DNA of 20,312 nt, taken from NCBI GenBank assembly GCA_009996555.1, contig JAACZX010000003.1:1-20312 (forward strand). The letters are read 5' to 3'. Shown here in pieces: positions 6,221-19,143 of the stretch. The position numbers were made by a program, and so were the translations under genes. This stretch comes from Chitinophagaceae bacterium. GTDB taxonomy: Bacteria > Bacteroidota > Bacteroidia > Chitinophagales > Chitinophagaceae. How positions within the stretch are numbered: position 1 is the first letter of the stretch; each line of letters opens with the position of its first letter. The notes below the pieces were generated by a model. That model saw only the letters and a list, made by a program, of their open reading frames with translations. It searched no databases and was not told where the DNA came from.

Positions 6221-9200
6221 TCAATTTGTTTTGATGAGCTTCAGCTGTTTGCTGAGTTTGCCCTGTACTACTTTTACAAAGTAAGTGCCTGTTCTATAAT
6301 TATCTCCAAACCTGATGTAGCTTCCGTTTCCGGTAACATGTGTTTCAAGTATGCGTCCGTAAAGATCGTACACAGTTACAGCTATCTTTTCTTCATTGTT
6401 TCCTGTAATGTACATGTTAAAGAAACTGCTGGTTGGGTTTGGCATTGGCTTCGCATCCAGTTTGCCTGCGGTAATAATAGCAGGTAATTCTTCTTCTCTT
6501 GTAACTGGTTTGCCGCCGGGTGATGCTACCACAACAGTGCTGTTAGCTCCAACCTTCATAACAGGTGCATCTGCATCACTTGCTCCGGGTTGATTATCGT
6601 AATACACTTCACCTGTGTTTTTGTTATAGATCTTCATCCTGATCTTGTCTTCTGTGTCATCCATAACAGTCATGATAAAGCTGATACCACTTTGTAAACC
6701 TGTAATGCGGCCGCTGCCTTTGATCTGGGCTTTTTTACCGCTGATTGAGAGGTATTCAAAATTCACAGCATTGTATTCAAAATCGCCCACCTTAAACACA
6801 AACTGTGTTTCGCCTTTTGGATTGGTTGATTTTTTGAAATAGTTAGCTGCAAATCCAAATGTGGCTTTACCCGTAGCTGCTGGATTGCTTTTTAACGCAC
6901 CGGCAGGAGATTCATACCAGCCACCACCAAAAGTATGTCCGCCTTCAGGATCATAAATAACAATGATCTGTTCCTGATCAGCATTGGTGGTTGCATAAGA
7001 GTTAAATCCATTTTGATTAGTAATACTCATTTTTACTTTGTACACACCAGCGGTAGTAAACTTATAACTGCCACTCACCAATCCTTTTCTGCTGCCCGAT
7101 GGTTCAGTTACTGAAGCTGCGGCTGCAGTGCTTTCATCCAATATCCATTTGGCGGTATGTTTATTACCCGGCACATCCCAAAAATCACCATTCATCGTAA
7201 CCGTGCTGCCAATTTTAAATGGCTTGCCCGATGACGGACCCGTGATGTTGTGTACCACATACACTTTTGTACTGTCTGTTGTGCTGTTACCGCAATCATC
7301 TGTTGCTGTAATGTAGATGGTGTAAATGCGTCCATCACCATTGCCCGCACGTTCAGCACGAAGGCGTACAGTATGTGCATCATCACCCACCACTTCATAA
7401 TCGATCGGTTCTGTATCACCATCGCCCAATCCATTGATGGGTTCGTTACTTACAATTGAAAGTTGTTTGGTGATATGAGCCAGGTCTGAACAATTATCAG
7501 CTACAGTATAGTTGATTTTAACCTGTACCATTTTATGGTTAGGAGGCCACAGGTAAGAAGGATCTGCACTGATGTTTGAAATAACAGGTGCAGTGGTGTC
7601 CTTAACAGTAATGGTTTGATTTTTCTCCGTTTTATTACCACAGTCGTCCTGCACTTTCCATGTACGTGTAATGATCACTTCACCCATACAACTGCCCGGC
7701 ACTTCCAGATCGCTGTAAGTAACTGCAGGAGCTGGGTCGCAGTTATCTGCAGCATCTGTTACATTACCTGTTACCGATGGATCAGCATTGTGGTTGCAGT
7801 TATCATCTTTGTAAATGGTGATGTTTGCAGGAACTGTAAATGTTGGAGCTGTTACATCTTTGATGGTGATGGTTTGCAGTTTTGTTGTTTTGTTACCACA
7901 ATCATCTTCCAGCGTCCATGTGCGTTCAATAATGGTTTCTCCAACGCATGAACCTTCTTTTATTACATCAACTGAAGTTGCATTCAATGTAGCATCACAA
8001 TTATCTGCTTCATCGGTTACATCGCCTGTAACGCCAACTGCTGCATCATAATTACAATTGGCATCTTTTTCAATCGTAATATCAGCAGGTACTGTAAAGG
8101 TTGGTGCTGTGTTATCACCAATTGTAAAATTGGTATTGCTGATGTCGAAAAAGATATTACCAATTGCTTCCACTTTAATACGTGCTGTATTGCTGTAAGC
8201 ACATGCAATTGTAACACCAGCCGATCCATCGTTTGCTGTACTTGCAACCAATGTGCTGAATGTTTGTCCGCCATCGGTTGATAAAGAGATCTTCACATTT
8301 GCAGCAAGTGCATCGCTGCCATTAACATCCCAAGTAACAGTATGTGTGCCGGGGCACCAGGTTACTGCACTGTTAGGAGAGGTAACAGTAAAAGGTCCGT
8401 ACGCATCATCAATGGTTACAACCATATTATCACTGTTGGTTTGCCCGGCTCCGGGATGGTTATCTCTTACCGTTAAGCGGAAGTTGAGCGTGCGTGATAC
8501 TGATGGAAGTTTTTCCCAGCGATTGGTATTACTGCCGTCGAGAATATTTTCAAGTATCGGCATAATGCGTATAGCAGAAGCAGATGGTGGTCTTGAACGG
8601 AACTCCGGACCAAACGTGTGAGTTGGGTTGGGCTCCCATGGAAAATCATCTTCATCTGTTACATTATCCATTTGCTCCCATGTGTAAGTAAGATTGTCTT
8701 CATCAACATCTGAACCACTTCCTGTTAATTGAAAAGGAGTTGATCTTGGAATGGTGTAACTGTTTCCTGCATCAGCTGCAGGTGCAGTATTACCTGCTGA
8801 TTGTGTAGTGCCGCATGTAACAGTTGCAAGGTATGCTGTTACCTGCTGAATACTGATGGCATGAAAGTAATGATCCCTGATAGGCACCACATGAAATCCT
8901 TCTGAATCCGAATTGCCACCATAGCTCATAATGGTGCTGCCGCTGCCGGGTTCCATTTGTGCACCATGACCCTCGTCTTTATGTGTAAAGGTGTGATTGG
9001 CGCCAAACTGGTGACCAAACTCATGTGTTAACATAATTTCAGAATACACACCTGTTTCATCCCAATCGGTACGGCCGGTAAAGCCTCTTGCTTTTGTTGC
9101 ATCATTACAAATACTTCCAATAGCTCCGGCATTGCCACCGCTGCCACTTGTTCTGCGGCGGATAAGATGACCCACATCAAAATTGTCTGATCCTATTTCA

Positions 9201-10087
9201 TCGGTAATAACTGTTTGTGCTTCGGCATTAATTTCATCCGTTTCAGTAGCAGTAAACGGATCGGTATCCGGGTCAAGAAAAATAACATCTTCATTATTAT
9301 TGATCATTACAATGCGTACGCCAAAGTCACGCTCAAGGTGTCCGTTCACAATAGTGATTTGTTCAACCTGCTCGGCAAGAACTTTTGCTATGCGTTCGGC
9401 ATCATTTGCTTCTGTACCATCCAGACACCATTCTGAAAATTCGCCTTGTGCAGCAAAGGCCAAGCGAAACACACGCAGCTCGCCGGTGTTTGCATTGAGT
9501 GTACCAAAGCCGGATGTGGCAGCGGATACTTTTGATTTTAATCCTGTTGAAGAACTGCCAGTGGTTGTACATTCAAAGTCATCGATCTCGGGCAATGCCT
9601 GTTGCGAAACAATCATGTACAGGTTGTTGCCCCGTTCAAGTTTTTCGATATACACTGCAGGTTTTGTATTTGAAAGAATCACGGCATTAAACCCTTGTGG
9701 TGTAAACGAAAAACGAATAGTTGTACCTGCATCTTTTGTACTGTAACCAAGGTAAGAACGTATGCGGCTGTGTTTACTTTGAAGACCAGCCTGCATTACA
9801 GATGCTTCAACAACCCTGAACTGAATAAGATTACCTTCTTCATCGGGCACGGTTAACAGAAAACCCGAACGTTTTGCAGCAACAGATTTTTCCGAAGGTG
9901 CATTGCGTAACTGTGCCTCCATTGCATTTTCCTGCAGGCGGAATACAAGAAATTTTGAAGGACGTTTTGATTTTGTAAAAGCTGCTTTGCGTAGCGATGC
10001 TTCACTGTCCCTGCTCCAGGGATTTTGTTGTGCGGCAGCAACAAAGGCAAACAGAACTACTGCCCACACAAGTAGAAATTTTCTCAT
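6221..10087 (-). CDS. Secreted metzincin metalloprotease with Ig-like repeats and T9SS sorting tail
   Basis: In this 1288-residue precursor, a signal peptide (about 1-19, ending FVAAA-QQ) precedes a propeptide-like region. A reprolysin-like zinc protease follows with HEFGHQFGANH (ligands H355, H359, H365; catalytic E356) and Met-turn IMSYGG (M387). Next come a PKD/cadherin-like module (about 430-575), an Ig-like module (about 575-655), two tandem 86-residue repeats starting APTFTVPA at 661 and 747, and a divergent third at 833. A domain around 1045-1190 with GGGWYESPAG resembles post-COAP-1. The tail (about 1211-1288) has PMPNPTSSFF, VYDLYGRI and GTYFVKV, the type A T9SS sorting pattern. It is probably exported across the outer membrane as a secreted or surface-attached protease; its substrate is unknown. 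Confidence 0.93.
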   Translation of the reverse strand: MRKFLLVWAVVLFAFVAAAQQNPWSRDSEASLRKAAFTKSKRPSKFLVFRLQENAMEAQLRNAPSEKSVAAKRSGFLLTVPDEEGNLIQFRVVEASVMQAGLQSKHSRIRSYLGYSTKDAGTTIRFSFTPQGFNAVILSNTKPAVYIEKLERGNNLYMIVSQQALPEIDDFECTTTGSSSTGLKSKVSAATSGFGTLNANTGELRVFRLAFAAQGEFSEWCLDGTEANDAERIAKVLAEQVEQITIVNGHLERDFGVRIVMINNNEDVIFLDPDTDPFTATETDEINAEAQTVITDEIGSDNFDVGHLIRRRTSGSGGNAGAIGSICNDATKARGFTGRTDWDETGVYSEIMLTHEFGHQFGANHTFTHKDEGHGAQMEPGSGSTIMSYGGNSDSEGFHVVPIRDHYFHAISIQQVTAYLATVTCGTTQSAGNTAPAADAGNSYTIPRSTPFQLTGSGSDVDEDNLTYTWEQMDNVTDEDDFPWEPNPTHTFGPEFRSRPPSASAIRIMPILENILDGSNTNRWEKLPSVSRTLNFRLTVRDNHPGAGQTNSDNMVVTIDDAYGPFTVTSPNSAVTWCPGTHTVTWDVNGSDALAANVKISLSTDGGQTFSTLVASTANDGSAGVTIACAYSNTARIKVEAIGNIFFDISNTNFTIGDNTAPTFTVPADITIEKDANCNYDAAVGVTGDVTDEADNCDATLNATSVDVIKEGSCVGETIIERTWTLEDDCGNKTTKLQTITIKDVTAPTFTVPANITIYKDDNCNHNADPSVTGNVTDAADNCDPAPAVTYSDLEVPGSCMGEVIITRTWKVQDDCGNKTEKNQTITVKDTTAPVISNISADPSYLWPPNHKMVQVKINYTVADNCSDLAHITKQLSIVSNEPINGLGDGDTEPIDYEVVGDDAHTVRLRAERAGNGDGRIYTIYITATDDCGNSTTDSTKVYVVHNITGPSSGKPFKIGSTVTMNGDFWDVPGNKHTAKWILDESTAAAASVTEPSGSRKGLVSGSYKFTTAGVYKVKMSITNQNGFNSYATTNADQEQIIVIYDPEGGHTFGGGWYESPAGALKSNPAATGKATFGFAANYFKKSTNPKGETQFVFKVGDFEYNAVNFEYLSISGKKAQIKGSGRITGLQSGISFIMTVMDDTEDKIRMKIYNKNTGEVYYDNQPGASDADAPVMKVGANSTVVVASPGGKPVTREEELPAIITAGKLDAKPMPNPTSSFFNMYITGNNEEKIAVTVYDLYGRILETHVTGNGSYIRFGDNYRTGTYFVKVVQGKLSKQLKLIKTN

Positions 10088-11812: not shown

Positions 11813-12880
11813 TTATTTGGTATTTAATTGTTGAATCAAAGCAAGCAATTGGGCTTCGGTTACTTCGGTAAGATTAAATGTTACACCATAATATGTTTTA
11901 CCACTTGCAGGCGCTCCTACTGTTACATCCTGCATCTCTGCATAAATTTTATTGTCTTTAAACGTGATAGCGAGGAATGTACCTTCAATACCAATGGGGA
12001 AACTGTTCTGGTAACTTAACAAACCTTCTTTACCTGCAGGTGCATTTACGATCTTGTTATACAATTTCACCAAAGTGTTTTGTTGTTTCACTTTAAAGAA
12101 GAGCATGCTTGGTTCACCACCCATATAACTGGTACTTGTTGCAGGGTTCCATTGGTTGCTGAAATAACCAAGTACTGTTGTCTTCGGACGTGGATCACCC
12201 ATCAACGCATCGCAGTTACGCCATACACCAAGACTATCAAGATTAAAAGTTGAAGTGCCGTTGTTATTGTTTACTGCAAAGTCGCCGTTTTGTACCCAGT
12301 TTACACCACGTGGCAGATAACCTGTTTGCGAAAGTGTTACCGGAATATTTTCATGATCATTACCATTGATAGTATAAGTAACTGCACTATCGCCACGCCA
12401 CATTGGTACTTCACGCAAGAATTGTCCGTTAGCTCCTGCTTTTGGTGCAGCTGGTACTACTACTTGTGCAGGAGCGTTGAGTTGTAATTCGTCTGCACCC
12501 TGGTTTGCTTTTACCGTCATCTCACCATAAGAGATCAGCATTTGTCCACCGGCTTCAGTTGGTCTGTTGGCCAATAACATATCTGCTGCCTGGTACATAT
12601 CTTTTACCTGTACGGTAACACTGCCTGTTACAATTTGTCCGTTTGCTTTTTTGAAAGCGTTTGCAGGGAAATTGATCTTTGTACCCTTGCTGGTAATGAA
12701 GTTGCCGCCCGTTGTTGCATCGATGGTAAATGCTTCATACCTGGGTGCATTGGCATCGAAGAAAGTTTTTACTTTTTGTTCGAACACATGCGGCTGCACA
12801 TACGTGTCTTTATTTTTCTTACAAGCAGTAAAACTGATGGCTGCTGCGATTGCTACGGTTGAAAGGATTGACTGTTTCAT
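11813..12880 (-). CDS. Outer-envelope lipoprotein with a ZU5-like domain
   Basis: From ATG 12880 the 355-residue protein has a lipoprotein signal MKQSILSTVAIAAAISFTAC, with acylated Cys at 20 followed by KKNKD. Residues about 58-135 (GGNFITSKGTKINFPANAF, GSVTVQVKDMY, GGQMLISYGEMTVKA) look like the ZU5-like beta domain found in some Bacteroidota surface proteins; this call is tentative. The remainder is unrecognised. An upstream start at 13033 is rejected: it would place 51 residues translated from promoter and repeat DNA before the signal sequence. The promoter carries the same AGGGTAACA-N16-GATATAC element as the PKD-CHAT operon. That links the gene to the nearby sigma factor, probably as an envelope component of the same response. 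Confidence 0.85.
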   Translation of the reverse strand: MKQSILSTVAIAAAISFTACKKNKDTYVQPHVFEQKVKTFFDANAPRYEAFTIDATTGGNFITSKGTKINFPANAFKKANGQIVTGSVTVQVKDMYQAADMLLANRPTEAGGQMLISYGEMTVKANQGADELQLNAPAQVVVPAAPKAGANGQFLREVPMWRGDSAVTYTINGNDHENIPVTLSQTGYLPRGVNWVQNGDFAVNNNNGTSTFNLDSLGVWRNCDALMGDPRPKTTVLGYFSNQWNPATSTSYMGGEPSMLFFKVKQQNTLVKLYNKIVNAPAGKEGLLSYQNSFPIGIEGTFLAITFKDNKIYAEMQDVTVGAPASGKTYYGVTFNLTEVTEAQLLALIQQLNTK

Positions 12881-12917
12881 AATAAGAAGTTTAATTGTTT
12901 TTGTTTGTTGTTTGGAA

Positions 12918-12949
12918 GTATATCCGCAGCAGTAAAAGATTGTTACCCT
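12918..12949 (-). promoter_or_regulatory. Putative ECF-sigma promoter of the lipoprotein gene
   Basis: On the minus strand AGGGTAACA is followed after exactly 16 bases by GATATAC. The start codon is 38 bases downstream of the second box, giving a leader of about 30 bases. The same two boxes with identical spacing occur at 17785-17816. The layout, with a -35-like box containing GTAAC and a -10-like box, is typical of ECF sigma promoters. No TAnnTTTG box is evident here. Confidence 0.65.
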
Positions 12950-13027
12950 GTTTGGGGAAGAATTTTTTAGAATTTTTCTAAGTCGCTGATTTTGAATAAA
13001 TAGCAGCGGGTAGTTATTTTGAATTGG

Positions 13028-13211
13028 GGCCACAAAGGCACGAAGACTTAAAGCAGCACAAAGAAGAATAGAAAGAACAAATGAGCTGCGTTACAGGCTG
13101 TACAAAGATTGCCGTAAAAATAGCGGGTCGCTTTGCTATGGATTTGTAATTGCATGCTAAAGGAACGTTTTCTTCTTTGTGTTCCTTTGTGCACTTAGCG
13201 ACTTCGTGGCC
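13028..13211. repeat. Inverted-repeat-flanked element with CACAAAG/CACGAAG arms
   Basis: Left arm 13028-13068 (begins GGCCACAAAG, ends CACAAAGAAGAA) is an imperfect inverted copy of right arm 13170-13211 (complement begins GGCCACGAAG, ends CACAAAGAAGAA). The outer 10 bases match with one mismatch and the inner 12 match exactly. Each arm is built of roughly 8-base units ending AAAG or GAAG. The 101-base core shows no gene. It lies 5 bases beyond the stop of the CHAT gene and could form a long hairpin that ends or stabilises that transcript. Together with the lipoprotein promoter region it fills the 336-base gap between the two genes. Confidence 0.65.
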
Positions 13212-13216
13212 AAAGA

Positions 13217-15808
13217 TCAGTGAGTACGACTGCGCAAAAAGTAATAACCAACCGGCAGTACTAAAAGAAGCAACAACCAATACCAATTGAATGAAGATGT
13301 TTGTAATTGCAGCTGTTGATCAACACCCATATAGCAAAACCCACTCCACAACAATGGATTTTTTTGAGCAAGACTTGTTGCGTTTTGCAGGTATTGTTTT
13401 CTTGCATCCTGTAATGCAGTAACAGGTGAATGTTGTTTTTGTAACGAAGTATAAAATGACTGAACAAATAATGGTGCAACAGCATCATCTACCGGCCAAC
13501 GACTTGCAACCACTCCTTTTACCCCTTTGCTGATGAATGCACGACCAATACTTGCAACGCCTTCCCCATCCTGTATTTTTCCTGCGGCTGTTTCGCAAGC
13601 TGTAAGCACAACCAACGGTGCAGCTGTAACCACATACTGCAACTGCCCGAGATAAAATTTTTGTTTCAGTACAAGAAAAGGCTGTTGTGAGCTGTCGGCA
13701 ACCGCATGTGCAGCTATATGCAACACTGCTCCCGATTGCATGGATGCAACAAATGCATTCGCATCAGTTGTTGTGGCTTCGTAAGTTGTTGTGTTGAGTT
13801 TTTTGCGCAACTGTTTTGCTTCAACAATTGAGTTGGGCAAAGCAGCAAATCCATTCTGCTGCTGATTGAATGTATAAACGGTGACCGGTATTTTTTCTGT
13901 TGACTGCTTTGCTTCCCGTACATATTGCAGAAACGAGTACACATAACTTACTGCGGTTTGTTCTGCAAAGAACTGTTGCTTACCCTGTCCGGCTTCGCCA
14001 TCCAGGCGGGCATCAATACTTAAAGCTTCGAAAGGAAGATTGTGCAGCCACCCATCAGCTGATACGATGAGCGATTTGTTTTTCAGTTCAAATGGGAGCA
14101 AGTGCTCACGTACTTCATTTGATAACTGAAAATAACCAGCCGGGTTATTATTGTAAGCAGCTGATGTTGGAGAGAAATAATTTTGCATCAAAGAATCTGC
14201 TTCCTGTTTTGCAGAAGCCGGCAATTGTTTACAGTAAATCGCTCCTGCTGTAGCATGTAATAAATAAACCTGTTCATTTGCGATTGCAAAGCTGATGAAG
14301 TCTGCTTTCGCTGTTATTTTTTTTAATTTAAGTTGAAACTGCTCGAAAGAAGGTTGCTCCAGCAATTGTGCAAAACGGTTTTCCTGCAAGCCGAGTTGTA
14401 ATTCCTGCTTGCGAATACGTTCACTGATGATCGTTTTCTTTGCCGCATCATTTGTTTCGGCCAATAACAAATAATCGTTGCGCAACTCTGCAAACAACTG
14501 CTGCTGCAATAAATCGGTACTGTCGGCCTGCCATTGCTTACTTCTGCTTTGCTCGTTCAACAACTTGCGACCTTTTGATAATTCAACAAGCCATAATAGC
14601 TGCTGCAACAATTCCTGCTTACCCGTTCGTTTGTATTGCTCTTCAAAAAACACAATCGCCTCTTCGCTGAAACTGTTGATATTTCTGCTTTGCAAACTAT
14701 TGGAAGAAGTTGTGATCAATTGATTGCAGTAATAGTCATTGGCAACAGCAAGTTGATAATAATGTATGGCACTATCGGGTTGCTGCTTTGTAAACGATTT
14801 TGCCAAACCGGCGTACAAAGCAGTTACGGTATGATCGGGATAATAAACACTGTTGCTTATGTCGAAGAAATGCAGTCCTGCGTTGAAATTATAAATACTG
14901 CTGTCAACTTGTTGCAACTGATAAAACAGATTCCCTTTTTCTACTTTCAGTTTTGCTTTATCTCTTTGCCTGCTGTCGGGATAAGTTTGTTCAAGTATCT
15001 TTTCTGCATTTTGCAATTTTTGCAAAGCTTTGTTCCATTGTTTCTGATCGTAAAGGAGTTTAGCAGAGAGCTGTAAGGCACTCACCATCCACGAAGCATC
15101 TGCATCAACTGCATCAGCCGAACGAAAGAATGCCAATGCTTTTTCATTGTAATAAAATGCATTATCGTTTTGCTTTGTTGCATAAAAAGCATCCGCTTTT
15201 ACGTTGTACAATAAACCGGTTACTGTTGGTTGCTCCGTTATAAACTGCAGGCCTTTGTTGCAGCTTATTTGTGTTGCCTCATAATCTCCCAACCAGTAAT
15301 ATGTAATCGCTTTGTTACTGTAAAGCGACGGAAGCAAATTATATTTCTGTTCTGCTGTTGCCCGTTCAATCGCCGATTGTTGCAGGCCAATTGCTTTATC
15401 ATAATCACCCAAACGAACATAGTTATTGCCAAGGGGCTTAATGATAAATTCTTCCGCTTCATACAATACTTTCTGTTGCTGCTGGTAATTCAATCCTTTT
15501 TCATACCAACGTGTGCTGGCCTGTATTTGTCCTTGCTGTAATAAATGATAAGCGATGTTGAGTACAAAATCGAGATAAGCAGTTTGTTCTTCTTTCAGCT
15601 TTGGTCTGCGCCACAAGGTTTGTTCTAACGAATCGGCTTTGTTAGAAAGATAGAACGGCTGTTCATCAGTGAGATCATATAGCTTCTCCAAATAAGACTG
15701 CAACTGATCTTTTGGTTGATAGACTTCATTCCACTTTGCTTTTTGCTGCGGCTGATCATCACCCGAAAAAAATAACAACAGGAATGCAATGCTGCTGAAG
15801 GGCAGCAC
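13217..15808 (-). CDS. TPR-CHAT caspase-like protease with membrane anchor
   Basis: In this 863-residue protein an N-terminal hydrophobic signal (LPFSSIAFLLLFFSG) is followed by TPR-like helical pairs (about 70-480). A CHAT domain (about 500-825) carries both catalytic signatures: LHIAAHA with H701, and VVLTACETAAG with C738. It also has the typical GVASIGRAFISKGVKGVVASRWPVDD. A C-terminal helix WYWLLLLLVLPVGYYFL (842-858) ends in RSRTH, so the TPR and CHAT parts are predicted periplasmic and the tail cytoplasmic. CHAT domains are caspase/separase-like cysteine proteases. The start is GTG 15808, the only usable start in frame. It lies 29 bases after the PKD gene, as the second gene of the operon. 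The substrate is unknown; the linked TPR-bearing membrane protein is a candidate partner. Confidence 0.92.
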   Translation of the reverse strand: MLPFSSIAFLLLFFSGDDQPQQKAKWNEVYQPKDQLQSYLEKLYDLTDEQPFYLSNKADSLEQTLWRRPKLKEEQTAYLDFVLNIAYHLLQQGQIQASTRWYEKGLNYQQQQKVLYEAEEFIIKPLGNNYVRLGDYDKAIGLQQSAIERATAEQKYNLLPSLYSNKAITYYWLGDYEATQISCNKGLQFITEQPTVTGLLYNVKADAFYATKQNDNAFYYNEKALAFFRSADAVDADASWMVSALQLSAKLLYDQKQWNKALQKLQNAEKILEQTYPDSRQRDKAKLKVEKGNLFYQLQQVDSSIYNFNAGLHFFDISNSVYYPDHTVTALYAGLAKSFTKQQPDSAIHYYQLAVANDYYCNQLITTSSNSLQSRNINSFSEEAIVFFEEQYKRTGKQELLQQLLWLVELSKGRKLLNEQSRSKQWQADSTDLLQQQLFAELRNDYLLLAETNDAAKKTIISERIRKQELQLGLQENRFAQLLEQPSFEQFQLKLKKITAKADFISFAIANEQVYLLHATAGAIYCKQLPASAKQEADSLMQNYFSPTSAAYNNNPAGYFQLSNEVREHLLPFELKNKSLIVSADGWLHNLPFEALSIDARLDGEAGQGKQQFFAEQTAVSYVYSFLQYVREAKQSTEKIPVTVYTFNQQQNGFAALPNSIVEAKQLRKKLNTTTYEATTTDANAFVASMQSGAVLHIAAHAVADSSQQPFLVLKQKFYLGQLQYVVTAAPLVVLTACETAAGKIQDGEGVASIGRAFISKGVKGVVASRWPVDDAVAPLFVQSFYTSLQKQHSPVTALQDARKQYLQNATSLAQKNPLLWSGFCYMGVDQQLQLQTSSFNWYWLLLLLVLPVGYYFLRSRTH

Positions 15809-15837
15809 TCGACGAAGGAAAGATTGATATGCATTTG

Positions 15838-17772
15838 TTACAGTCGCCAGGATGCATAAAAATAGAGATAAGATCTGTTTGTTCCGCCATAATAAAAACG
15901 GGTACCTATTTGCGGACCAAGACGGACCTTTCCAAACTGCACATCAACAAACGGAAGAAACTGTGCATTGGAGAAAGTTTTGATCGAATTGTTTTTTGTA
16001 AGGTCGTAAGGGAAGTTCGCCTGTCCGTTGAAATTGCTCAGCAAATACGTGCGGCTTGTATCAACCGAACCTGCAAAGTCGGCATCTACACGCACACCTG
16101 CACCGGCCGACAAAAGATCGTTGAAATTATACCGCAGATGCAGGGGCACTAAACCAATGCGTGTAATACTCGATTTTAATTGCTCCCTGTAACCACGGTA
16201 ATCATAATTCTTTCCATCGATCACCACTACACCCTGCGTTTGAAACGTTTGCTGTGCAGTTTTTGTCTGGTAATATTTACCGAATAACTCAAACTGGAAA
16301 TAAGGTTTGTACGGTGCAAGTCGTGCAATACCCACGCCCACATTCACGCCATCACTTAAACCATTTGCACCAAGGTTCATTTCATAACCGGCCATTACAA
16401 TTGGTGATAAGGCAGGTTTAAATTTTCCCGTAGCGAAGTTGGTGATCACCGGTTCGTTCTTATCAAAATAAATAGCAGTTCTTCCTTTGAACGGAAGATT
16501 ATCCAGTTTCTTTTTTGTTTTTACATCAAACTCTACAAAACCTTTGGTACTGTCTTTATCATTCACGCCTTTCTGATTGGTGCCCGGCAGATAAATGCCG
16601 TTGAAGATAAATGCAGCGCTGTCCTTGTTTGTAACTAATTCCCAGCAACCGGTTCTTGTGGGCACACTATCGCAGGACAAACAATAAGGCGACATATCTC
16701 TAATGCTGATCGTTTGCGGATCCATGGCCGATGGCAGTGTAATAGCCAGTTTTATTTTTCTTGCAGGACCTTCACCATCGTTCTGGAAACGTATTTTATA
16801 ACTGAGCGATTTACTTTTCTTGAGCGTGCGGTAATTCAATCGCCCCTGTTTTAAATTCATTTTGTTGGGATCATGCGATGTAACAACAGGAATGTTCAAC
16901 TGATGCATGTACACGCCACCTGTATCGGGCACAAACAAACCCGTAATGATGATCGTTGCATTTGTGTCTTTGATCAAACCTGGTGTAACATATAAATTGG
17001 TGAACATAAACTGTGCATCGGTTGTTGCCTGCTTAATATCTACTGCAAATACATTGCTGTAACTTTTCAATGTATTCATCAAGAACGTTTTGCTTTCTAC
17101 GCCGCTGAACTTTTTCTCCTCTTTAAAATGCGATGCCGGGCTACCACTGCTTGTCAACAACATATTGTCAAACGGACGAACAGATGCAATTGCATTTTTA
17201 TCGTTGATCAATGCAGCTTCGTTGTACAAACGAAAACCGGCTGTATCAAAACTGTTTTGTCCGAATTGCTTTTCATTGATGAAGAGATACACTTTACCAT
17301 TCACTGCCACATCATTTTTCCAGCCTGCCATCAACACCATCGTATCGCCGGGCTTGGCCATGCAGTTATACTTCAGCTCAAAAAAACCATTTGCTTTAAA
17401 GAAGTTTTGTTCTGCAGGCGTTACTGCTGCGAGGTAGGTTTTGTTCACCTGTTTTACAGCTACCTTCTTCGGTTTGCGGCCGGGCTTCTTGCCATCATCA
17501 TAATTATTAACAGCATATAACACGGCTTCGTAATCGCCTTCCTTTGCATACACATGTTCCGGATTTTCTTCGTTGCTGAAATGACCATCACCAAAATCCC
17601 ACAAATAAGTATAGAAAGGTTTAGGAGCGCCGGGTATTTGTGTCAATGGCGGAAGACTTGCTTTAAACGTAACCTTGTTTTCTTTCTGTTGCACCACAAC
17701 TGAGGAATCGGTTTGCGCCGAAGCAGCAAAGCAAGCCAGCAGGAGAATACTATGAATGATTATTTTTTTCAT
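15838..17772 (-). CDS. Secreted PKD/DUF11-like protein with barrel-like C-terminus
   Basis: This 644-residue protein has signal peptide MKKIIIHSILLLACFAASA. A PKD domain follows with YTYLWDFGDG (54-63), ENPEHVYAKEGDYEAVLYAVN and a basic linker GKKPGRKPKK. A DUF11-like beta module (about 320-390) contains LSYKIRFQNDGEGPARKIKL. The last 190 residues are strands rich in alternating aromatics and end YLYFYASWRL, as in outer-membrane barrels; the barrel reading is inference. It is probably a cell-envelope sensor or ligand-binding component. It is the first gene of the operon with the TPR-CHAT protease, and its start codon lies 12 bases downstream of an ECF-like -10 box, giving an unusually short leader. 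Confidence 0.82.
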   Translation of the reverse strand: MKKIIIHSILLLACFAASAQTDSSVVVQQKENKVTFKASLPPLTQIPGAPKPFYTYLWDFGDGHFSNEENPEHVYAKEGDYEAVLYAVNNYDDGKKPGRKPKKVAVKQVNKTYLAAVTPAEQNFFKANGFFELKYNCMAKPGDTMVLMAGWKNDVAVNGKVYLFINEKQFGQNSFDTAGFRLYNEAALINDKNAIASVRPFDNMLLTSSGSPASHFKEEKKFSGVESKTFLMNTLKSYSNVFAVDIKQATTDAQFMFTNLYVTPGLIKDTNATIIITGLFVPDTGGVYMHQLNIPVVTSHDPNKMNLKQGRLNYRTLKKSKSLSYKIRFQNDGEGPARKIKLAITLPSAMDPQTISIRDMSPYCLSCDSVPTRTGCWELVTNKDSAAFIFNGIYLPGTNQKGVNDKDSTKGFVEFDVKTKKKLDNLPFKGRTAIYFDKNEPVITNFATGKFKPALSPIVMAGYEMNLGANGLSDGVNVGVGIARLAPYKPYFQFELFGKYYQTKTAQQTFQTQGVVVIDGKNYDYRGYREQLKSSITRIGLVPLHLRYNFNDLLSAGAGVRVDADFAGSVDTSRTYLLSNFNGQANFPYDLTKNNSIKTFSNAQFLPFVDVQFGKVRLGPQIGTRFYYGGTNRSYLYFYASWRL

Positions 17773-17784
17773 GATGATTCAGGT

Positions 17785-17816
17785 GTATATCAATAAGGCC
17801 GGCCAACTGTTACCCT
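17785..17816 (-). promoter_or_regulatory. Putative ECF-sigma promoter of the PKD-CHAT operon
   Basis: On the minus strand AGGGTAACA is followed after exactly 16 bases by GATATAC. This repeats the element at 12918-12949, while the 16-base spacers differ (this one contains the palindrome GGCCGGCC). The conserved boxes with a free spacer are what is expected of a promoter rather than a copied segment. It points away from the adjacent sigma gene, which starts 39 bases from the far edge of the element. Confidence 0.65.
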
Positions 17817-17854: not shown

Positions 17855-18430
17855 TTGCCTTTGCACGCCGATCAGAAATATATCACTGCTTTGCTTGAAC
17901 ACGATCAACGAACGATCAGTGAAATTTACCAACGCTTTGCACCCAATATGAAGGCTTACCTGCTTTCACGTGGTTGCAGTGAAGAGGATGCAGGTGATGT
18001 GTTCCAGGAAGCACTCATTGATATTTATAAGCTGGCGAACGACAAACAGTTTGTGCTAACCTGTCCGTTTGAAGCGTTTCTTTTACTGCTCTGCAAACGT
18101 AAGTTCATCAACAAAACGAAAAAAACTTCGCTTACCGTGGTAACAAATGGCGAAGAAGATGCATATACCCATATACCGGACGATGCTAATGCAGGTGCCG
18201 CCGAACATGCAGCGCAGGTTGAAAAAGAACAATTGGTCATGCTTGTACTGGATGAAATGGGCAACTGCAAAGAAGTGATTTTAAAAAGTCTGCTGAAAAA
18301 GCCGCAGGAAGAAATTGCTGAAGAACTGGGTATGACTTATGCCTATTACCGCAAACGAAAAAGTAATTGCATGGGTGAACTGGCAGAACTGGTACGCAAC
18401 AAACCACAATTTAAAGAACTGATGTCATGA
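17855..18430 (+). CDS. ECF-type RNA polymerase sigma factor
   Basis: This 191-residue protein has sigma region 2 at about 24-90 (IYQRFAPNMKAYLLSRG, EEDAGDVFQEALIDIYKLA). A short acidic linker leads to region 4 at about 130-185 (CKEVILKSLLKKPQEEIAEELGMTYAYYRKRKSNC), the helix-turn-helix that reads the -35 box. There is no region 1 or 3, so it is ECF-like. The start is TTG at 17855: the frame is closed upstream by TAA at 17837, and the first ATG, at residue 32, would remove part of region 2. Its stop overlaps the start of the TPR membrane protein gene (ATGA), implying coupled translation. The likely targets are the two AGGGTAACA-N16-GATATAC promoters in this window. No copy precedes its own gene, so autoregulation is not supported. 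Confidence 0.88.
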   Translation: MPLHADQKYITALLEHDQRTISEIYQRFAPNMKAYLLSRGCSEEDAGDVFQEALIDIYKLANDKQFVLTCPFEAFLLLLCKRKFINKTKKTSLTVVTNGEEDAYTHIPDDANAGAAEHAAQVEKEQLVMLVLDEMGNCKEVILKSLLKKPQEEIAEELGMTYAYYRKRKSNCMGELAELVRNKPQFKELMS

Positions 18431-19143
18431 CCTACACGTACTCCGATATTGATGCTTACCTCAACGGCGAACTGACTGCTGAAGAACAGCAGCAGTTTGA
18501 ACAGGAACTCCGCAGCAACCAACAACTGCAGGAGCAGGTGAATGCCTATCGTTTACTCAACAGTACAGTAGGAAAACATCAGCAGGCCGAACAAACATTA
18601 CCACAACTGAAACAAATACTTGGTCCGCTTACACATCACTACTTCAAAAAAGAAAAGGCGAAAGTGTTTACGATGAAGCGAACGATGTATATGCTGGCAG
18701 CAGCAGCATCAATCGTGTTGATCTTATTGGTTGCATTGCCGGGCACATCACCTGATGATTATTCGTTTGATGCCATGCCGGGTGCCATTGTACGTGGTGC
18801 TGAAGATGATAAAGCAAAAGCAGCACAGCTGTTCAACAACGAACAATATGCAGATGCAGCAAAAGCTTTTCAGCAATTAAAAACAACTTTTCCAGCTGAT
18901 GCGGCTGTTGATTTTTATCTCGGCCTCAGTCTGCTGAAAACAGAACAATATGCTGATGCATTGCCTTTGTTTGAAACATTAGCCAACGGCACATCTGTGT
19001 ATGCAGAAGATGCGAACTTCTTTGCAGCGTTAACTGCATATCATTTAAAGCAAAACGAGAAAGCAAAACAATATGCGGAGAAGGTGAAAGAAGAAAGCAG
19101 GTATTGGAAGAATGCGAAGGCAATAAAGAAGAAGGTGAAGTAA
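18427..19143 (+). CDS. Putative anti-sigma factor: single-pass membrane protein with periplasmic TPRs
   Basis: In this 238-residue protein the N-terminal 80 residues resemble Bacteroidota anti-sigma starts (DIDAYLNGELTAEEQQQFEQEL) and are predicted cytoplasmic. One TM helix follows (about 86-105), then a periplasmic segment with two to three TPR-like units (AAQLFNNEQYADAAKAFQQL, LSLLKTEQYADALPLFETL). The classical zinc-binding HxxxCxxC motif is absent. Its ATG overlaps the sigma stop by four bases. This order and topology are typical of a sigma/anti-sigma pair in which the outer domain senses a signal. The TPR region could contact the TPR region of the divergently encoded CHAT protease. The anti-sigma role is inferred from arrangement and topology, not from a diagnostic motif. 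Confidence 0.8.
   Translation: MTYTYSDIDAYLNGELTAEEQQQFEQELRSNQQLQEQVNAYRLLNSTVGKHQQAEQTLPQLKQILGPLTHHYFKKEKAKVFTMKRTMYMLAAAASIVLILLVALPGTSPDDYSFDAMPGAIVRGAEDDKAKAAQLFNNEQYADAAKAFQQLKTTFPADAAVDFYLGLSLLKTEQYADALPLFETLANGTSVYAEDANFFAALTAYHLKQNEKAKQYAEKVKEESRYWKNAKAIKKKVK

Follow-up and report, generated by a model that had tools for sequence, protein, structure and literature searches.

Promoters read by extracytoplasmic function (ECF) sigma factors carry a -35 element with an AAC core at a fixed spacing of about 16 bases, and a CGT-type -10 box is frequent, though not universal, among them. SigP, a Bacteroidota ECF sigma factor, regulates the type IX secretion system (T9SS), and the type III-E CRISPR module includes a sigma factor and its inhibitor. 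In Corynebacterium glutamicum, a SigH-dependent promoter inside sigH transcribes rshA only, an arrangement that has been proposed to shut down the response (PMC3489674). Here we describe a related arrangement in a 20,312-nt stretch of DNA from a Chitinophagaceae bacterium (contig JAACZX010000003.1, positions 1 to 20,312, assembly GCA_009996555.1), referred to in its full length as the window, in which the bipartite element AGGGTAACA-N16-GATATAC occurs twice near an ECF sigma gene. We consider it probable that this element is the promoter read by the ECF-type product of the sigma gene at 17855-18430, serving a small envelope regulon and, in a further copy within the sigma gene, the anti-sigma gene, with negative feedback as the outcome.

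RshA is a soluble redox anti-sigma factor, in contrast to the putative membrane anti-sigma factor with tetratricopeptide repeats (TPR) encoded in the window. The sigH-rshA system is similar in having an ECF sigma and an anti-sigma gene in one operon with a sigma-dependent promoter within the sigma gene, the spacer there being 16-19 bases. Unlike the present locus, it belongs to another phylum and has a GGAA-type -35 and a GTT -10, so that its specificity differs, and codon-level conservation is not mentioned in the available part of the report (PMC3489674). The ECF promoter motif SM6 of Flavobacterium psychrophilum likewise involves a Bacteroidota ECF sigma factor with an anti-sigma factor and envelope targets; its CGT -10 and T9SS targets differ from the GATAT box and the candidate PKD, CHAT, OmpA-family and lipoprotein targets here (PMC9723704). 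The type III-E CRISPR module with its TPR-CHAT protease (PMC10028731) is comparable as well, in that the protease has a genetic link to a sigma factor and an inhibitor. Unlike in that module, the CHAT protein here is apparently exported and membrane-anchored, as judged by eye, and its partner is a putative transmembrane TPR anti-sigma factor. In type III-E the TPR-CHAT protease accompanies a Cas7-11 effector; a PADLOC scan of five window proteins revealed no CRISPR effector. For this phylum, the open-access literature searched yielded no conserved promoter written into the codons of a sigma gene, and it yielded neither the motif itself nor a CHAT-sigma link outside CRISPR. The separate parts of the locus have precedents, and the intragenic copy is the more surprising part.

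The bipartite element and its occurrence with the sigma gene

The argument is built on the following features of the window.

12918-12949, minus strand: candidate promoter element 1, with -35 box AGGGTAACA, 16-base spacer and -10 box GATATAC; exact match
17785-17816, minus strand: candidate promoter element 2, with identical boxes, upstream of the PKD protein gene; exact match
17855-18430, plus strand: ECF-type sigma factor of about 190 aa that contains sigma2 and sigma4; the start codon is a TTG, either at 17855 or at 17861
18427-19143, plus strand: putative anti-sigma factor with N-terminal helices, one membrane helix and a C-terminal TPR domain

The sequence-only reading of this stretch had reported two exact copies on the minus strand, both pointing at start codons and both with unrelated 16-base spacers. 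The window scan confirmed the copies, their coordinates and the dissimilarity of the spacers (ATCTTTTACTGCTGCG and GTTGGCCGGCCTTATT), and the boxes were found to lie 37 nt from the start codon of the lipoprotein gene (ATG at 12880) and 12 nt from that of the PKD protein gene (ATG at 17772). At up to three mismatches the window contains three matches, while 100 shuffles average 0.12. The host genome, a draft of 4,133,759 bases in 801 contigs with 92.87% completeness, holds no exact copies other than these two. The next-best genomic match (C222:504-535, two mismatches) was taken as a chance occurrence and not as a regulon site, since by eye it lies antisense within a coding region. With up to three mismatches allowed, the genome gives 24 matches and the reversed-pattern control also 24, so that only near-exact copies are meaningful on that scan alone.

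The sigma factor (191 aa) has the ECF, or group IV sigma-70, architecture of sigma2 and sigma4 only within about 160-200 aa. It matches TIGR02937 with 41.5 bits over residues 22-178, just below the cut-off of 42.9, and TIGR02985 with 38.1 bits, far below the cut-off of that model; no Pfam match was found at 1e-3. A conserved C-terminal Y-x-RKKK region is seen in the alignment of its orthologues. The boxes also conform to the ECF pattern in having an AAC-core -35 (GGTAACA) and a gap of 16, and the anti-sigma gene at 18427-19143 adjoins and overlaps the sigma gene. This gene is assigned as a putative anti-sigma factor from a weak match to NF052375 (25.9 bits) and from its topology. Its AlphaFold2 model has a mean predicted local distance difference test (pLDDT) score of 83.8, and the TPR part matches YbgF in Foldseek; with a membrane helix and a YbgF-like TPR domain in the model, a periplasmic signal is probable.

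To follow the element into relatives, a family sample of 147 genomes was used, 138 of which have some ECF match. Orthologues of the sigma factor (E 1e-39 or better, at least 39% identity) are present in 17 genomes (loci L025-L041). One of these genomes, G055, also carries a weaker relative (E 2.6e-32), which was left aside. An exact GGGTAACA-N16-GATATAC lies within 1.5 kb of the sigma gene in nine of the 17 loci, only within the sigma gene in L028 and both inside and outside it in L027. Seven further loci have forms with one to three mismatches of 16 positions, some solely inside the sigma gene, and L029 has no form of the motif within 1.5 kb. None of 13 other ECF genes (L042-L054) has an exact copy beside it, and scattered matches with two or three mismatches occur in four of these loci. 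When the gap was left free from 13 to 19, a gap of 16 accounted for 27/35 matches in the 17 orthologue genomes and for 12/46 in the other 130 family genomes (Fisher P 6e-6). The window itself lies near Lacibacter, its sigma factor being 97% identical to that of L. luteus and 96% to that of L. cauensis. The boxes of element 1 recur upstream of a 355-aa gene in both species, with an identical spacer in L. cauensis (L086) and a diverged one in L. luteus (L085), and element 2 retains GGTAACA and GATAT with an altered spacer in L085, L086 and L087.

A wider set consists of the best 80 of 347 relatives, which we take to belong to Chitinophagaceae, Sphingobacteriaceae, Flavobacteriaceae and Dyadobacter. 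In these 80 named loci, GGTAACA-N16-GATAT has 87 matches, 82 of them outside the sigma gene, compared with 14 for all other gaps from 10 to 22 pooled and none for the reversed control. When sites were selected by GGTAACA only, on the divergent strand and up to 700 bp 5' of the sigma gene, 72 sites in 65/80 loci were obtained; GATAT follows at gap 16 in 48 of them, at gap 15 in one, and at no other gap from 10 to 22. The -10 is mostly GATAT and sometimes GATCT, and in some loci the motif lies kilobases away from the sigma gene. Classical autoregulation from upstream of the sigma gene was considered and rejected, as the 10 GGTAACA found within 700 bp on the gene's own strand all lack a -10. A homologue of the anti-sigma gene is present in 80/80 loci, and 78/83 matches to it begin 500-650 nt past the sigma start.

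Alignment of the 82 sites outside the sigma gene reveals a pyrimidine-purine step 6 nt past GATATA, mostly followed by two A. This feature took no part in the selection of sites, and a pyrimidine at -1 with a purine at +1 is present in 93% of them. We read the step as the probable transcription start; by this initiator, element 1 is predicted to start at 12913 and element 2 at 17780, the latter with a leader of about 8 nt.

The presence of the motif was also compared with that of the sigma gene in 150 genomes of one genus (family f5), using the pattern GGTAACAW-N15-GATATA. The motif occurs in 50/50 genomes with an intact sigma gene (154 matches; one of the 50 genes is cut by a contig end), in 3/96 genomes without the gene and in 2/4 genomes with a sigma-antisigma fusion, the reversed control giving 3, 5 and 1 matches in the three classes, respectively. 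A count with GGTAACAW-N15-GATAT in 32 genomes that have the orthologue and two that have a fusion gave 82 matches, with at least one in 33 of the 34 genomes, compared with eight for the reversed pattern. The view that motif presence follows the sigma gene orthologue is thus supported by these samples. Genome comparison shows a bipartite element of fixed spacing, with a start-site signature and co-occurrence with the sigma gene. The suggestion in the sequence-only reading that the neighbouring ECF factor reads the boxes gains support from the recurrence of the element, the gap of 16 and the 50/50 against 3/96 distribution. The host genome has two exact copies, gap 16 prevails in the orthologue genomes when the gap is left free, the boxes recur in the relatives' sigma loci with diverged spacers, and the regulon appears small and, in line with the sequence-only reading, largely local, with 0 to 7 sites per genome.

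The copy within the sigma gene

The earlier reading had found no third copy by eye. There is one within the sigma gene, however, a match with three mismatches, and relatives conserve its core.

18137-18168, plus strand: intragenic promoter-like element, with GGTAACA at 18139-18145, 16-base spacer and CATAT at 18162-18166

The element sits in the linker between sigma2 and sigma4, and its predicted start at 18173 is about 254 nt before the anti-sigma start. As in sigH-rshA, a same-sense promoter-like copy is thus found inside the sigma gene and upstream of the anti-sigma gene, although the full -10 often deviates. Val-Thr is invariant in the otherwise variable linker of 16 aligned orthologues, and the codons GTA ACA, in frame as Val-Thr, are found in 165/165 orthologous loci. 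This number is the union of partly overlapping sets: 17/17 family orthologues, 80/80 named loci, 20/20 phylum orthologues and 50/50 sigma4-bearing genes of the genus sample. The 161 loci that were anchored yielded 152 distinct contexts of 120 nt, which fall into 35 clusters when grouped at 75% identity, and the remaining L092, L114, L131 and L150 were counted from the codon tally of the named loci. The gene in L117 is apparently fragmented, with the Val-Thr site in frame.

Conservation extends to bases in codons whose residues vary. The G preceding GTAACA is present in 149/152 contexts and AT at the -10 in 152/152. In the named loci, this G closes codons of nine different kinds (77/80), and the -10 A falls at the wobble position of GTA, TTA, GGA, CAA or GCA, encoding V, L, G, Q or A (80/80); the remaining four- and six-fold codon columns all stay at or below 66%. 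Among all Val-Thr pairs, the sigma sites included, GTA ACA is used in 262/1859. The preceding G, a following A and AT at the -10 occur jointly in 1.1% of 180 other in-frame GTAACA sites of these loci, compared with 96% of the 80, and a pyrimidine followed by a purine at the start position is found in 78% of intragenic and 38% of the 180 background sites, a difference to which coding constraint may contribute. Eighteen other ECF genes have no comparable codon column (best 0.69), in-frame GTAACA is present in 0/8 non-orthologous ECF genes of the phylum sample, and in three subsamples of 18 orthologues both motif codons are uniform every time.

Four sigma genes of the genus sample (L186, L187, L304, L305) lack sigma4 and run into the anti-sigma frame, and provide a natural control. 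Val-Thr is kept in 4/4 of these fusions and GGTAACA in 0/4, while the 50/50 sigma4-bearing genes keep GTAACA; the AT of the -10 is gone in the most diverged fusion and retained in the other three. As three of the four strongly resemble one another, perhaps two events are represented. A sigma factor without sigma4 should not read the -35, and a fused anti-sigma factor needs no message of its own, and both fit the loss of GGTAACA. Taken as a whole, the comparison of codons and fusions shows DNA-level selection on the intragenic copy.

As a separate observation, the fusions continue into the membrane and TPR parts of the anti-sigma factor, and may represent either a novel type of membrane protein or a gene in decay.

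Proposed mechanism and other explanations

We propose that the released sigma factor would transcribe the divergent PKD-CHAT operon and the lipoprotein gene, and, in relatives, genes for a small number of further exported proteins. The promoter within its own coding sequence would be fired as well and would yield additional mRNA for the membrane anti-sigma factor encoded downstream, so that the response would limit itself. Binding of the sigma factor, initiation of transcription at these sites and the supply of anti-sigma factor by the intragenic transcript are what we infer from the comparisons above. Several observations weigh against this proposal. The -10 is without the CGT box usual for ECF promoters, and the intragenic -10 is TATCT in 59, TATTA in 25 and CATCT in 21 of the 152 contexts (105/152 together) and GATAT in only 10/152, the window copy having CATAT; with such a degenerate -10 the element may be weak or serve another purpose. 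No GGTAACA is present within 700 bp on the divergent strand in 15/80 loci, and 24/72 of the sites selected there by GGTAACA are without GATAT at gap 16. Family genomes lacking the orthologue show a mild excess of gap 16 (12/46), genus genomes without the sigma gene tend to be smaller, and the housekeeping sequence TAnnTTTG is not enriched before the sigma gene (9/80, against 6.5 in shuffled sequences). In one of the three orthologue subsamples, an arginine column outside the motif is also uniform (12/12).

The intergenic copies could be sigma promoters and the intragenic one a pause or read-through block site, or a decoy titrating the sigma factor, that does not feed the anti-sigma gene. We regard this as unlikely, though it deserves some weight: the mostly degenerate TATCT, TATTA or CATCT would fit binding without strong initiation, and a landing site or decoy would show an identical constraint on the DNA. 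It is disfavoured by the placement of both boxes at promoter spacing, by the pyrimidine-purine frequency at the start position (78% against 38%), by the presence of the anti-sigma gene in 80/80 loci and by the precedent of a sigma-dependent promoter internal to sigH for the anti-sigma gene alone, as described for C. glutamicum (PMC3489674). Far less probable is that the element is the operator of another DNA-binding regulator, with the sigma gene merely a neighbour, even with a -10 lacking the usual CGT and with motifs kilobases from the sigma gene in some loci. The two boxes are asymmetric to each other, stand exactly 16 bases apart and have an initiator at the right distance; their presence tracks the sigma gene (50/50 against 3/96), and the intragenic copy decays where sigma4, the reader of the -35, is lost. 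Finally, the Val-Thr of the linker, invariant as it is in the 16 aligned orthologues, could be a protein requirement with a coincidental codon match, which we find scarcely credible considering that GTA ACA is used in 165/165 loci compared with 262/1859 Val-Thr pairs overall, that wobble bases at the -35 and -10 are frozen in codons for differing residues, that the best column of 18 other ECF genes reaches 0.69, and that the fusions retain V-T yet lose the motif. A protein constraint alone is ruled out by these codon controls and fusions.

Target genes and biological meaning

The genes downstream of elements 1 and 2 are the following.

15838-17772, minus strand: exported protein with PKD, DUF7619 and C-terminal DUF7849 (Pfam); candidate target gene
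13217-15808, minus strand: TPR-CHAT protease-like protein (PF12770, 154 bits), next gene after the PKD gene
11813-12880, minus strand: beta-rich lipoprotein (355 aa) without a match in Pfam; candidate target gene

Homologues of the PKD protein are found in 73/80 loci, all 74 matches lying on the strand opposite the sigma gene, those of the TPR-CHAT protein in 69/80 and those of the lipoprotein in 57/80, these locus counts being lowered by contig ends and simple gene calls. The TPR-CHAT gene is probably in the same operon as the PKD gene. Judged by eye, its product carries a signal peptide as well as a membrane helix at the C terminus, and His701 and Cys738 of the CHAT domain are invariant in 17 aligned sequences. 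The protein appears to be a caspase-like protease that is exported and has a link to a sigma factor. In the PADLOC scan it has a weak BovA match (E 4e-6), and the other four window proteins have none. The lipoprotein model has a mean pLDDT of 75.3, and Foldseek gave nothing at E 0.001 and no clear solved relative for it.

Motif copies distant from the sigma gene were also fetched, and 28 of these 32 distal sites have an open frame downstream. The other four (L231, L242, L246, L254) are likely chance occurrences, with no ATG-started frame of at least 70 codons within 400 nt. Of ten distal products scanned, five have an OmpA domain (L226, L227, L230, L235, L240), L228 and L256 are PKD-DUF7619-DUF7849 proteins, L244 has a weak carbohydrate-binding domain, and L225 and L236 have no Pfam match. 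The L236 product (G103), preceded by the motif 124 kb from the sigma gene, is 49% identical to the window lipoprotein. A distal site before a gene of ~520 codons retains much of the spacer (CGTAACTAATTGATATA or close to it) in L241, L248, L249, G531, G565 and G603, and the L250 homologue of this gene has a diverged spacer; the L249 and L250 genomes carry a fused sigma gene. Where the spacer is conserved, an extra regulator may bind, or the copies may be recent. Five promoter copies in a row over about 0.3-1.5 kb stand beside the sigma gene in G538:C5, G571:C105, G588:C5 and G594:C108, which suggests local amplification of target genes.

Two further observations concern neighbouring and unrelated genes. 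Positions 6221-10087 of the window encode a large metalloprotease of the M12B reprolysin-like type, which matches HYR and PKD and has a tail for T9SS sorting; the window scan found no motif copy before this gene. In L044, L045, L047-L051 and L054, an inverted pair like AAAAGTAACCC ... GGGTTACCTTTTT separates an unrelated ECF gene from the divergent gene next to it, and may serve another Bacteroidota ECF group as its target signal.

A broader, self-contained circuit for sensing the envelope can be imagined, in which a dual-coding sigma linker and anti-sigma promoter is combined, Bacteroidota-wide, with a caspase-like TPR-CHAT protease from the same regulon that cuts the periplasmic TPR domain of the anti-sigma factor, forming an opposing positive loop. 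We hold this to be rather doubtful; the action of the CHAT protease on the anti-sigma factor is a conjecture drawn from the signal peptide and C-terminal membrane helix seen by eye.

An uncharacterised yet widespread sigma factor would, by the reading we favour, gain a promoter code together with a regulon and a rule for its feedback, and a CHAT protease would be linked to sigma signalling outside CRISPR. The intragenic copy is an unusually clean natural promoter-like element in coding DNA, in which residues vary while the key -35 and -10 nucleotides are frozen across families, and a purely synonymous mutation could separate its promoter function from the function of the protein.

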